Source: a virus
Virus record (IMG/VR): IMGVR_UViG_3300032241_002503
Location: 1 to 37,273 of that record
DNA length: 37,273 nucleotides
Direction: 5' to 3' (one strand)
Both the position numbers and the translations under genes were made by a program. Numbering within the stretch: position 1 is the first letter of the stretch; each line of letters begins with the position of its first letter. Shown here one piece after another: positions 868-17,777 of this stretch. Under the pieces are notes generated by a model. That model was not told where the DNA came from, ran no database searches, and was given only the letters and a program-made list of their open reading frames with translations.

Positions 868-3003
868 CTATGCACCCATAAAAGCAACCGGCACATTGTC
901 ATTTGGGTTACTTTCTGCAACTGTGTTGTTTGTTGGTCCGTGATTAACAGTATTATTATTATTTACAATAATTGGAGTTACAGAAGCCGTTTGTGATTGT
1001 TTGTCTTTCAAATCTTTATTTTGTGATGATGCTGCGGCAAGGTTGGATGATTTAGGTGTAGGAGGTACATCTGAAGCCGTTGCAGTTTCTTTTGGAAAAG
1101 GTTTAGCTGATCCACCGCCATCAAGGCTAGCCATTTGTACATGCATATGGCCACCTGTTGCCTTTCCTGACTTGTGATTATATTCATCAATTGCATGATC
1201 TGCACCCATTTTTTTCAATTTATCAACTAGTTGTTTTCCTTCTTCATCAGTTGGGGGTTTATCTAATACAAAATCAATTCCTAATCCTTTTGCATGTTGA
1301 CTAGTCGGTGATTTTTGTTGATGAAACCCATCATTAAAACTAGAAAAATATGCAAAACCTGGAAATGTTTCTTGGATGGATTTAGCAATAGATAATAATT
1401 TAGAAGCAACGGGAGAATTATCTGCTTGAACATCTCCTTTTTTTAATTTGTAACCAGATTTAATTAGTTCGTCTTGTGATGTTACAGTACCTCCACCAGA
1501 ACCAGTACCGCCAGGAATAGTTGGTGTTGAACTGGATACTGTTGTTGGCATAGAAGAACTTGGTGTTGATTTGGCAGGTTCTCCATCTTTTCCTTGTTTT
1601 ATTAAACCAACAACTTCTTTTGCTCTATTGCCAACTTGTGTGTACCATTTACTATCTTTTAGTTCATCTCCAGTTTTATCAAAATTTCCAACGGCAGCTG
1701 ATTTAGCGGCATTTTTAAAAACAGTCCACCATGCTCCCACGTTGTAAGTTAAATCTACAAATGCGCCTTGTGCAGGCTCATTTGCTTTATCAAATCCTGG
1801 ACCTTTTTCTGCAATTTTTTCATGTTTTTTATAATCTTCTTCAAACAGTTTATTCATCTGTTCTTGAGTTAAAGCAGGAGTCGTATTATTACCTTTAGCA
1901 CCAACTGCACCATTATTTTTCCAAGCGGCATATTCAGGCGGTAAAGTTTTTCCGTCACCGATTAAGTGGCCAACACCAATAGTCCAAAGTCCTTTACTAT
2001 CTCTATATGGATAAGGAACTGCACCCTCATGACGTATAATCATCTTTTTTGTATCATCAGATGTTCTTGGAATTCCAACTTTTTCAGCCGTGGGTTTGGG
2101 TTGTTCAACCTTTGCAGGTGTGACTTTTTCTTTAGCTGATGGTGCTGGTGCCTTACCAGGTTTAGGTTGTTCAACTTTTGCAGGAACAACTTTTTCTTCA
2201 GAAGGTGTTGGCGCTTCGCTGGGACGAGCTTCGGGTACAGGTTGTTCGACAGCAGCTGGACCAGTAGGTTTCTTGGCCAACATTAATCCACCGGCAACCA
2301 TTAACGCTGGCTTGGCGGCTTTTTTTGCTATTTTTTTAAGAACCGAATCTTTTTTTTCTTTTTTAAGTTCTTTTACTGCTTTTATTTTTTTTGTTTTTTC
2401 TACTGCTTGAGTACCTTTTGGTTTTCCACCCGTTATAGCAGAAATTAACTCATCATGGCGTTTTTGTTGTTCAGATTCTTTTTCTTCTTTAAAATTATTT
2501 TGTAATTCTTTATTTTTTTGATTGTATTCATTTTTTGTTTTAATTAAAGTAAATACTTTACCTAAAGAATCAGCAATAGAATCACCTTTTTTGATAGGCT
2601 CTGGTGTACTACCAGTAAATTTTAATTTTAGATTGTCTGAAGAATCTAATGATAGTGGTTTATTTTTTGCCGTTACATCAGACAGAGGAGTTCTTATTTT
2701 TGGCGTTTTTTTAACAGGTTCTGCTTTTTTATTAAATTCTTCTCTTTGTTCAGGAGGAATAACATAGCCACGTTCTTCAAAAACTTTGAGTTGTTTATCT
2801 ACATCATTTCTTTTTTCTTTGAGGATGTCGGATTCTTTTGTTTCTTGCGTATCTTTTTTTGGTTTGCCAAGAGAAGCCATTTCTTTTTTAGAAGCGGCAC
2901 GGCCATAACCACCTTTTTTGCCTAAGACGAACCAATACCCTTTGCCGGCAAAAGCATCAGGATTCCAAGCAAATATTTCATCGCCTAATTTTTTGGTTAT
3001 CAT
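868..3003 (-). CDS. Tail-associated peptidoglycan hydrolase with GH24 lysozyme and M15-type peptidase domains
   Basis: This 711-residue protein combines two wall-degrading domains. Residues 1-48 are the module shared with the 1-859 protein. Residues ~50-310 are a Lys/Glu/Pro-rich linker with a short hydrophobic patch flanked by lysines (~229-246) and a repeated VPAKVEQPKP/TPAKVEQPKP motif. Residues ~316-470 resemble T4-type lysozyme: RHEG (Glu326), YRDSKGLWTIGVGH (Asp335, Thr341), which correspond to T4 Glu11, Asp20 and Thr26. After a Ser/Thr/Gly linker, residues ~510-626 have the M15/VanY-like zinc pattern SQHAKGLGIDF (His570, Asp577) and GGHMHVQ (His619/His621), with Asp606/Glu607 as possible catalytic acids. 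The tail is Asn-rich. The start ATG overlaps the upstream stop as ATGA. Because the gp5-like spike here has no lysozyme domain, this protein probably drills the wall during infection. An endolysin is less likely given its large size and linkers. Confidence 0.85.
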   Translation of the reverse strand: MITKKLGDEIFAWNPDAFAGKGYWFVLGKKGGYGRAASKKEMASLGKPKKDTQETKESDILKEKRNDVDKQLKVFEERGYVIPPEQREEFNKKAEPVKKTPKIRTPLSDVTAKNKPLSLDSSDNLKLKFTGSTPEPIKKGDSIADSLGKVFTLIKTKNEYNQKNKELQNNFKEEKESEQQKRHDELISAITGGKPKGTQAVEKTKKIKAVKELKKEKKDSVLKKIAKKAAKPALMVAGGLMLAKKPTGPAAVEQPVPEARPSEAPTPSEEKVVPAKVEQPKPGKAPAPSAKEKVTPAKVEQPKPTAEKVGIPRTSDDTKKMIIRHEGAVPYPYRDSKGLWTIGVGHLIGDGKTLPPEYAAWKNNGAVGAKGNNTTPALTQEQMNKLFEEDYKKHEKIAEKGPGFDKANEPAQGAFVDLTYNVGAWWTVFKNAAKSAAVGNFDKTGDELKDSKWYTQVGNRAKEVVGLIKQGKDGEPAKSTPSSSMPTTVSSSTPTIPGGTGSGGGTVTSQDELIKSGYKLKKGDVQADNSPVASKLLSIAKSIQETFPGFAYFSSFNDGFHQQKSPTSQHAKGLGIDFVLDKPPTDEEGKQLVDKLKKMGADHAIDEYNHKSGKATGGHMHVQMASLDGGGSAKPFPKETATASDVPPTPKSSNLAAASSQNKDLKDKQSQTASVTPIIVNNNNTVNHGPTNNTVAESNPNDNVPVAFMGA

Positions 3004-3197
3004 CTACGTCTTTCCATGTTTTTTTGCTTAATCTTCTCGTTTTCTTCTTCAATATATTGAATAAGCATAGCAACATAGATGTCCCTTTCCCAAGGTAACA
3101 TGGATTCCAATTCTGCCAAACTATACTTGTGGTGCTGTATCAATGCAAAATTGGTTTTATAATAATTCTTCAGATTGTCATGACGAAAGGTTAGCCG
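3000..3197 (-). CDS. Short -1 frame extension of the gp26-like gene (candidate frameshift product)
   Basis: A 65-codon open frame with protein-like sequence (SLAELESMLPWERDIY, then QYIEEENEKIKQKN) fills the gap between the gp26-like gene and the hydrolase. It has no ATG near its 5' end; the first is internal, at 3101, and would give only 33 residues. The frame is -1 relative to the upstream gene and stays open across that gene's stop. The overlap contains A AAT TTT (3200-3206) and T TTT TTC (3197-3203), both fitting the X XXY YYZ slippery pattern. A -1 shift would give a fusion of about 306 residues. The stop TGA overlaps the hydrolase ATG as ATGA. The alternative is an independent small protein from TTG or the internal ATG. 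The coding nature is convincing; the translation mechanism is inferred. Confidence 0.65.
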   Translation of the reverse strand, partial: RLTFRHDNLKNYYKTNFALIQHHKYSLAELESMLPWERDIYVAMLIQYIEEENEKIKQKNMERRR

Positions 3198-3919
3198 AAA
3201 AAATTTTCGAGGCCTTCAACTTTAATTTTATGTTCAAATCCACATTTACCGCAAGTCATTTCTATGTTTTTATTCAACGTTGGTAAGTTATTAAAAAATT
3301 CTTCTATTTTACTAAATTGTTCCGTATTGAGTGATTCAACAAATTCAATTAACTCAACAGGATCAGCTTCTTTTGCATAATAAAACTGTTGGCCATCGTG
3401 AATGTACTCAATAGATTCTGCAATTAATTCTAATGCCAAGTCGGCCATATTATCAAAATTGGTAGCACGTTTAACAACAGAAAATTGTGGATATCTTAAT
3501 TTAACGGAAAGTTTGTCATTCAGTTTAATGGTATCAATGATGCCTTCTGGTTTATCAACTTTAATTTCTAATAGATTAAAATTGACATCCATGATATTAC
3601 CACATTCTTGTTCATCTTGAACTATATTATTACACTTATATTTGTTCTCTACTATTTCCCCAACAGACCTTGCACGGAGTTGTAAGAAGTAATATTCAAT
3701 ATCAATTAAAGGAATGTTATCAAGGTCAAATTTATCTGTAAGTGTACAATTCATCAACACTTGACGAATATTTTGTTCAATAGTTTCAGCATCATCTGAT
3801 TCCATTGCCATCAATAAGTTTCTTTGTTCTTTTACTAAGAAAGGTCTGTAACGAATTTGTTTACCACTTAAAGGTAAAGTCAATTCATATACCGGTGCGT
3901 CAATTTTTGGCAAAGCCAT
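3191..3919 (-). CDS. T4 gp26-like baseplate assembly protein (T4_baseplate family)
   Basis: The 242-residue protein begins with LPKIDAPVYELTLPLSGK and RYRPFLVKEQRNLLMA, typical of the T4 gp26/gp51 type of baseplate hub assembly proteins in T4-like phages. T4 gp26 is slightly shorter (208 residues). Cys96 and Cys106, plus a C-terminal CGKC (Cys223/Cys226), look like a split zinc-ribbon. A strong ribosome site, AAGGAG, precedes the ATG. The gene lies between the tube protein gene and the hydrolase, so a role in hub or tail initiation fits. The last codons (GLENFFG) contain a slippery sequence through which a -1 shift would add 65 residues. Family assignment is from sequence pattern; the exact T4 equivalent (gp26 or gp51) is uncertain. 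Confidence 0.75.
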   Translation of the reverse strand: MALPKIDAPVYELTLPLSGKQIRYRPFLVKEQRNLLMAMESDDAETIEQNIRQVLMNCTLTDKFDLDNIPLIDIEYYFLQLRARSVGEIVENKYKCNNIVQDEQECGNIMDVNFNLLEIKVDKPEGIIDTIKLNDKLSVKLRYPQFSVVKRATNFDNMADLALELIAESIEYIHDGQQFYYAKEADPVELIEFVESLNTEQFSKIEEFFNNLPTLNKNIEMTCGKCGFEHKIKVEGLENFFG

Positions 3920-15545: not shown

Positions 15546-17777
15546 ATGAGTACCATAAAGATCACGGATCTACCACAGATTTCAACATTAAATCCAAACA
15601 CAGCAAAAACCGTATTTGTTGGTGTTGACCTTTCTGCTAATATAACTGCACAATTTTCTGCACAGACTATTGGAGCATCTTTATACTCAAACAACTCTCT
15701 TCCTGTTGGTAATAATTTAATTGTTTTTCCAAATACAACTGCACAATTTTCAAATAGTGATCCGTTATATACTCAAGTTAATTTACAAAATTTTAGCAAT
15801 ACTGGTGCAGCAGATTACATCATAACAGCAGATACAGGTACAAATTCAAATAGTTATGTTGATTTGGGTATTAACAATTCTCAATGGAATCCTATACCAT
15901 TAGGACAAACATCACAACAACCATATGATGGTTATTTGATCGTACAAGGTCCTACAACCAACGGAAATCAAGGTAATTTAGTAATAGGTACTGCGTCTGC
16001 CAATGCAAATTTAGTATTTGCTGTCGGTGGCCAATTTGCAAATAATATTTCTGCAAAGATTACTGCAAATGGATTGGTGTTAAACACACAATCTTATATG
16101 ACATTTAGTGATGGTACTGTGCAAAGAACGGCTGCAGCAACTAACGCATATTCTATTGCTGCTTTTGCGGCCGCCAATACCGCAGCGGCAAATACAGTAT
16201 TACTAACAGGTGTAAATTTAACACAAAATACTTCAATTACTGCCTCGTTTAATCAGGCTAATGCTGCTTTCAATCAAGCTAATGCTTCGTTTACCGTAGC
16301 AAATGCGGCTTTCACCAGCTCTAATGGTTCAATTGCTTGGTCTACCGCTAATGCCGCTTTTGTGCAAGCTAATGCGGTATTTACAAGAGATAACGCTGCC
16401 TTCTTACAAGCTAATGCTTCGTTTACTGTAGCTAATGCGGCATTTACCAGTTCTAATGGTTCAATTGCTTGGTCTACTGCCAACTCAGCGGCAACATATG
16501 CTAACGGTGCTTTTACTCAAGCAAATGCCGCATTTGGTGTAGCCAATAATGCTTTGGCTAATACAACAGGAACACTTAACGGTTCATTGACAATTACAGG
16601 AAACGTTACTGCAAATTACGCTTTCATACAATCTGCTGTCGATTTCACATCTAATGGTACTATTGCAACATCAAGTGGTGTAAACAATAGTAAGAATTTG
16701 AATATCACCGCTGGTAGTGATTCGGGCGGTTATCCAGGGGGTTCAATCACAATCACATCAGGTACTAGTTTGGCAACGAACGGCACAGGTGGTAACATTA
16801 ATTTAAATCCTGGTACAGGTAATGTAACAGATGGTTCGGTTATAGTGTCTGGTAATTTGATCGCCAATGGAATTCAATCAATTACTGGTGTAATTTCCAC
16901 AGGAAATTTAGTTGTTAATGGTACTACAACATCAAATGGTACTGCAAATATTACAGGCACATTGAATGTAACAGGTATCGTTAACATGAATGCTCAGGTC
17001 GTTTTAACTAACACTTCATTCTCAAATACACAATCAGCATTGACGATTACAGCAACACCAAACGTTGCAGTACCATCACAAGATGGTTACATGATTCACA
17101 TTTCTGGTAAACAAAACGTATCTTCACGTATTGTTACCGATTCATATGGTGCAAACACTTATGTTGTTTATGCTGGTCGTTCTGCGAGGGGTAATGTATC
17201 CAACCCAACAGGTGTCAAAGCAGGTGATATATTGACCCGTTTCTCTGGTAATGGTTTTGGTACAACAGGTTATGCACCCTTAGGATCAGGCCGTTTAGAT
17301 ATTGTTGCGGTAGAAGATTTTACTGATACAAATCGTGGCACACAGTTGCAACTATGGAATACACCAATCGGTAGCAATACGCTAACAAACATTGCAAACT
17401 TCAATGGCGTGGATGTTACATTTGCCGGTGAAGTAAACCCACAAAAAGGTTTTGTATTCACACCTAATGTATTGTCTAGTATCACGACATCGTTGACTAT
17501 TGATATTGCAAATACTTCATTATTTTATTTTAAAACAAATGCTACTACAACATTATCGTTGACCGGATTCAAAACAGGTAAGGTTGTTGAAGTTTGGTTA
17601 ACTAATACAGATACAGGTCCTGGTTCAAATCATACTATTACACACGGTTGTTTGGCAAATAATTCAACAGTTGGTGCCACGTCATTCACTTTGACATCTG
17701 GTCATTCAGCATACATTAAGTATTTCAGTATTGGTACCGACCAAGGAAATACTTATTGTCAAATCTCCTATAGCTAA
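15546..17777 (+). CDS. Fibre-like virion protein with Asn/Ala heptads
   Basis: A 743-residue protein inserted between gp7 and gp8. Residues ~1-60 (KITDLPQISTLNPNTAKTVF) look like a fibre attachment domain. Residues ~87-190 (NSYVDLGIN, DGYLIVQGPTTNGNQGNLVI) resemble a block in the 33482 fibre (NGWIDMGI, EGYLF, SGNLVIATD). Residues ~232-341 are Asn/Ala heptads such as NQANASFTVANAAF, including a 44-residue near-duplicate with TSSNGSIAWSTAN. Then come Gly/Thr/Asn-rich beta repeats (GNLIANG, GNLVVNGTT) and a globular C-terminal domain. There is no S74 chaperone motif. It is preceded by GGATAAAAA, a weak ribosome site. The position in the wedge cluster suggests a baseplate-attached fibre or decoration, perhaps taking the place of gp9-gp12 type parts. 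Function is inferred. Confidence 0.7.
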   Translation: MSTIKITDLPQISTLNPNTAKTVFVGVDLSANITAQFSAQTIGASLYSNNSLPVGNNLIVFPNTTAQFSNSDPLYTQVNLQNFSNTGAADYIITADTGTNSNSYVDLGINNSQWNPIPLGQTSQQPYDGYLIVQGPTTNGNQGNLVIGTASANANLVFAVGGQFANNISAKITANGLVLNTQSYMTFSDGTVQRTAAATNAYSIAAFAAANTAAANTVLLTGVNLTQNTSITASFNQANAAFNQANASFTVANAAFTSSNGSIAWSTANAAFVQANAVFTRDNAAFLQANASFTVANAAFTSSNGSIAWSTANSAATYANGAFTQANAAFGVANNALANTTGTLNGSLTITGNVTANYAFIQSAVDFTSNGTIATSSGVNNSKNLNITAGSDSGGYPGGSITITSGTSLATNGTGGNINLNPGTGNVTDGSVIVSGNLIANGIQSITGVISTGNLVVNGTTTSNGTANITGTLNVTGIVNMNAQVVLTNTSFSNTQSALTITATPNVAVPSQDGYMIHISGKQNVSSRIVTDSYGANTYVVYAGRSARGNVSNPTGVKAGDILTRFSGNGFGTTGYAPLGSGRLDIVAVEDFTDTNRGTQLQLWNTPIGSNTLTNIANFNGVDVTFAGEVNPQKGFVFTPNVLSSITTSLTIDIANTSLFYFKTNATTTLSLTGFKTGKVVEVWLTNTDTGPGSNHTITHGCLANNSTVGATSFTLTSGHSAYIKYFSIGTDQGNTYCQISYS
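16281..16544 (+). repeat. 132-bp near-repeat within the Asn/Ala heptad region
   Basis: The segment beginning AATGCTTCGTTTAC at 16281 recurs at 16413, a 132-bp (44-residue) offset. Both encode NASFTVANAAFTSSNGSIAW. Differences are mostly third-position changes, and the second copy diverges towards its end. Confidence 0.7.

Follow-up and report, generated by a model that had tools for sequence, protein, structure and literature searches.

In phage lambda, slippage into the -1 frame close to the end of a gene that lies just ahead of the tape measure gene gives a short and a long product, gpG and gpGT. For the T4-like phages, Vladimirov et al. are said to have named in 2022 genes 26 and 51 as the tail assembly chaperone (TAC) genes of T4, and frameshifting is reportedly found in several other T4-like groups. 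According to PMC3004832, T4 gp26 and gp51 were for a long time entered as chaperones of hub assembly, their function being unclear. Passages on T4-like TACs in two other papers (PMC10885494, PMC12846349) cite Vladimirov, Gautam and Davidson (Virology 2022, 566:9-15) for these chaperones; in the first, which also describes the Xu et al. data set of TAC frameshifts, some T4-like phages are noted as having, in place of frameshifting, two genes, one for the short form and one for the fusion, and in the second, poly-T slip signals are given as known in TAC-N genes of T4-like phages. These passages make no mention of a conserved Shine-Dalgarno-like (SD-like) element, and a literature search joining gp26 and gp51 with frameshifting or tail assembly chaperones found no work treating the present locus directly. 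As T4-like TAC genes were identified by Vladimirov et al. (2022), a frameshifted chaperone pair is not new in kind, and the original prediction for this DNA is out of date in remarking that a frameshift at gp26 is not usual in descriptions of T4-like phages.

The locus lies in an IMG/VR virus record of 37,273 bases, the whole of which is referred to here as the window. It very probably codes for two tail assembly chaperones, a short and a long one as in the lambda G/GT pair, with predicted products of 242 and 306 aa related by a -1 frameshift. The basis of this reading is sequence, phase, conservation, gp26/gp51 homology, fold resemblance and gene order, from which we infer the slippage, its rate, the partners of the products and the identity of the tape measure protein. 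The short/long pair of 242 and 306 residues put forward in the original prediction thus draws support from comparative evidence. Its description of the products as hub assembly chaperones holds as regards a chaperone pair but is too specific as regards the hub, the two being better described as TAC-N and TAC-NC forms that would act on the tape measure protein.

The putative short form (TAC-N, 242 aa) is encoded by a gp26-like gene on the minus strand (3191-3919), which matched PHROG 150 in a profile search. With the fused product as query, PF12322 (T4_baseplate) was matched at E=1.3e-61 and 208.5 bits, against a curated cut-off of 24.5; T2 gp26 and gp51 also match this family. Genes of tail-tube type and for a DNA-end-protector lie upstream of the gp26-like gene in the reading direction, and the T4-like tail gene families present in the window include head closure, tube cap, wedge and hub/lysozyme. 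The baseplate region also holds a 743-aa ORF (window 15546-17777) without a PHROG match at an E-value of 0.001.

Modelled with AlphaFold2 (pLDDT 88), the short form had as its top three PDB matches 3fgx (Z 8.1), 3klu (7.5) and 2ob9 (7.2), with the next match at 4.8. All three are phage tail assembly chaperones according to the part of PMC9603447 concerned with them. They match residues 1-95, with Foldseek E-values which are not significant and Z-scores near 8 which can arise by coincidence; even so, three chaperones as the first three matches to a gp26 model appear to stand out. The gp26 profile, searched against the sequences of solved structures, matched none. The fourth structure, 5ir0 (Z 4.8), comes from a PICI-like element of Vibrio cholerae (its ORF19) and hints weakly at a fold of chaperone type.

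The gp26-like ORF ends, on the minus strand, with ..GAA AAT TTT TTC GGC TAA. The original prediction named two heptamers here, A AAT TTT and T TTT TTC, and both are in the phase for -1 slippage. The second, at 3197-3203 (the T of AAT at 3203, TTT at 3202-3200 and TTC at 3199-3197), was compared across 101 loci from IMG/VR contigs, cyanophages, KVP40 and phages of Pelagibacter, Methylophilales, Sinorhizobium and Aeromonas, a set which includes 80 further contigs beyond the first group of relatives. Two loci were left out: L049, in which the gp26 frame was unresolved by the script (though it reads AGT TTT TTC), and L022, which is an in-frame fusion of the T4 type. Junction statistics were computed on the 96 distinct junctions among the 101 loci.

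An in-phase T TTT TTN was found at the identical place in all 101 resolvable loci, each time with the extension in the -1 frame, so that the alignment with related phages proposed as a check in the original prediction came out in its favour. The heptamer is TTTTTTC in 81 loci, TTTTTTT in 12 and TTTTTTA in eight, and its last base is G in Rhizobium phage RL2RES; variation of this base among C, T, A and G is consistent with what slippage allows. The extension in the -1 frame together with T TTT TTC, TTT or TTG occurs in close IMG/VR relatives, in cyanophages S-RSM4, P-TIM40 and ACG-2014h, Pelagibacter phage Mosig, Methylophilales phage Melnitz-1, Vibrio phage KVP40 and Sinorhizobium phage phiM19, and in RL2RES. 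The codon preceding TTT TTN is AAT in only 30 of the 96 distinct junctions and AGT, GAT, GCT or TCT in the other 66; A AAT TTT is therefore incidental and was rejected as the slip site, T TTT TTN alone being conserved.

Past the slip site the -1 frame is open for 65 codons on the minus strand (3003-3197), as had been noted in the original prediction together with the lack of an ATG near its start. Its translation is RLTFRHDNLKNYYKTNFALIQHHKYSLAELESMLPWERDIYVAMLIQYIEEENEKIKQKNMERRR* (3197-3003, stop 3002-3000), which would give a fused product of 306 aa. The TGA stop (3000-3002) overlaps the ATG (3003-3001) of the next gene, a 711-aa ORF, and the ATGA at 3003-3000 is thus shared between the two, again as predicted. 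This putative TAC-C segment matched PHROG 634 ('baseplate hub assembly catalyst') at E=1.4e-27, compared with 8.2e-24 for T2 gp51. In gp51 of T2 and IME13 the gp26-like domain (PF12322) and the extension (PHROG 634) lie in one frame and can be aligned over the junction with the fused product; the window's extension is collinear with T2 gp51, and by these matches the extension is taken to be homologous to the C-terminus of T4-type gp51. Within the part of the extension that precedes the usual ATG (+57), pairwise differences are 0.325, 0.238 and 0.551 at codon positions 1, 2 and 3, respectively. On these comparisons the -1 frame is conserved protein-coding sequence, beyond chance, because of the PHROG 634 match, the sequence and phase kept in 101 loci and the codon-position pattern.

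An alternative is that the extension is a separate small gene, the 'gp51' of cyanophages, translated by reinitiation or from an internal start after the gp26 stop. Existing records annotate it in this way: g51 of S-RSM4 starts at an ATG 50 nt past the gp26 stop, and in KVP40 the annotated ATG lies on the stop codon. Start codons in the -1 frame are also not rare, with an ATG between the slip site and +54 in 41 of the 96 junctions, where a separate start of translation could supplement slippage or take its place. The slip site is nevertheless kept in all of these, and an ATG-started small gene lacking a slippery site was found at none of the 101 loci. T TTT TTN is invariant with or without an ATG, conservation of the protein begins ahead of any start codon, and the same domain exists as a fusion in T2-type gp51. 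Moreover, the first 19 extension codons lack an ATG in 55/96 junctions, the first 10 lack ATG, GTG and TTG in 44/96, and no ATG occurs through +57 in 13/96. The window's junction is among those without an early start: a TTG comes first, at +54 nt, and an ATG not before +96 nt, inside the conserved domain. Translation as a separate gene is accordingly considered unlikely as the general explanation. At four junctions (L016:2513, L024:2022, L006 and L007) a -1-frame ATG lies on or directly after the gp26 stop with the slip site kept, and slippage and reinitiation are both possible there.

That the extension is an untranslated remnant of a split gene, or a sequencing error, is a reading that one genome by itself could not have ruled against, but the same phase, a similar length and the codon-position pattern in 101 loci (96 distinct junctions) make it exceedingly improbable. 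Equally negligible is the suggestion that the T run is kept solely for the protein's two Phe residues, which are indeed conserved at the end of the short form, with no slippage by the ribosome: the synonymous sites are frozen, the third base T is common to four different preceding amino acids, and the second Phe is replaced by Leu in some loci which still keep the T run.

The frozen codon of the slip site supports the frameshift reading further. T TTT is present at the slip place in 96/96 distinct junctions, against 0.45 per locus expected from gp26 codon usage if the protein alone counted, although the loci are related by descent and such counts are not independent trials. Other Phe columns can be used as a control because they share the ancestry of the slip codon, and while the slip Phe codon is TTT in 52/52, the other well-conserved Phe columns are all mixtures of TTT and TTC. 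At other Phe-Phe pairs in these gp26 genes the context T TTT TTN was found in only three of 87 cases.

Candidate stimulators of slippage were sought on both sides of the heptamer. GGAGG occurs at one exact position, which corresponds to 3218-3214 and has its end 10 nt short of the heptamer, in 27/96 distinct junctions, compared with 2.9 expected and a maximum of nine in 1000 sets with synonymous codons redrawn. The codons which form it (GAG, GTG, TTG/CTG and GGG) are over-used. In the window itself there is a weak SD-like GAAGG about 10 nt before the heptamer (3213-3217, minus strand), with an anti-SD duplex of only -3.3 kcal/mol. The upstream SD-like element, enriched in relatives and weak in the window, is a possible addition to what has been described for the TAC genes of T4-like phages. 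RNA folding 3' of the slip site was somewhat stronger than in gp26 control stretches (single-sequence mean z of -1.1 to -1.75 versus -0.1 to -0.4). A shared 3' hairpin was rejected as a stimulator, RNAalifold on 36 sequences returning no consensus pair for a conserved downstream stem-loop. It may be put forward tentatively, as a plausible idea rather than a favoured one, that the GGAGG at a fixed 10 nt is this family's main stimulator in place of downstream RNA structure, with its strength tuning the short/long ratio; on this view the frameshift would have given way, in the T4 type, to a duplication that produced the gp26/gp51 gene pair.

The gene which follows, a 711-aa ORF on the minus strand (868-3003), has a lysozyme domain (Phage_lysozyme, E=2e-11). 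In the PHROG search it matched only lysozyme/endolysin families and families of unknown function; the family which it matches is filed by PHROGs under endolysin. The ORFs at the same position in P-TIM40, L067, L064, L053, L069, L075 and L060 match tape-measure PHROGs, and tape-measure-matching ORFs of relatives sometimes carry endolysin domains. From its position and these relatives, the 711-aa ORF is probably the tape measure protein. At about 0.15 nm per residue, a tape measure of 711 residues would correspond to a tail near 107 nm. The ORF after the chaperone locus differs greatly among relatives in sequence and domain content.

The gp26/gp51 relation, the fold matches and the probable tape measure gene next door are the reasons for which the locus is read as a tail assembly chaperone pair. 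Under the proposed mechanism, most ribosomes would read through to the TAA and produce the 242-aa TAC-N, while a minority, with Phe tRNAs on TTT and TTC, would move back by a single base on T TTT TTC. The two tRNAs would then re-pair with TTT and the -1 frame would be read for 65 codons, giving the 306-aa TAC-NC. Together the two forms may coat the tape measure protein or keep it soluble, and the extension may bring in subunits of the tube or of other parts of the tail.

In the public phage records examined no joined CDS crosses the slip site. The extension is annotated as a separate gene from an internal ATG at L015:2265-2399, L018:2076-2222 and L020:2064-2207 and in similar phage records, where it is labeled gp51, 'baseplate hub assembly catalyst' or hypothetical, and in ACG-2014h (L019) it is without annotation. 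A similar domain (..LMPWHL..) occurs in the -1 frame past the gp26-like stop in Klebsiella phage Menlow (L026:3741 on) and Vibrio phage D528 (L027:3669 on). No canonical slippery heptamer was seen at the gp26 end in these two phages, whose groups may use another slip site or a separate start. By this analysis, what many cyanophage records list as a small ORF for 'gp51, baseplate hub assembly catalyst', and what is seen at the present locus, would be the C-terminal portion of a chaperone made by frameshifting, and the split annotations should therefore be joined. The loci also offer many naturally occurring slip sites, some with a strong and some with a weak SD-like element upstream, on which ideas of how phages set the chaperone ratio can be tested.

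In a dnaX-type -1 cassette an SD-like element precedes the heptamer by 10 nt. Some of the relatives have such an element at the same spacing, but the locus differs in that no conserved 3' hairpin was found and the window's own element is weak; the dnaX-type combination of upstream SD-like element and downstream hairpin was not seen at the locus. As in the lambda gpG/gpGT system, a short/long pair would arise by slipping into the -1 frame shortly before the short gene ends, with a (probable) tape measure gene next in order; the heptamer differs, the short form is larger here and the match seen in structure is to HK97 gp13 (2ob9). In the TAC locus of the Vandenendeviridae and Andersonviridae, as described in a passage of PMC12846349, a -1 frame that runs on uninterrupted and a T run that is conserved were likewise the grounds for proposing a -1 frameshift, but the motif is GTTTTT and the phage group is another one. 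The T4-like TACs of Vladimirov et al. (2022), as cited in the passages named at the outset, also have short and long forms and a poly-T frameshift signal. The correspondence with T4 and T2 themselves is one of proteins rather than of gene arrangement: T2 gp26 corresponds to the short form and T2 gp51 aligns end to end with the predicted frameshifted product, but there the two are encoded by paralogous genes on opposite strands, whereas here a single frameshifting gene would supply both.
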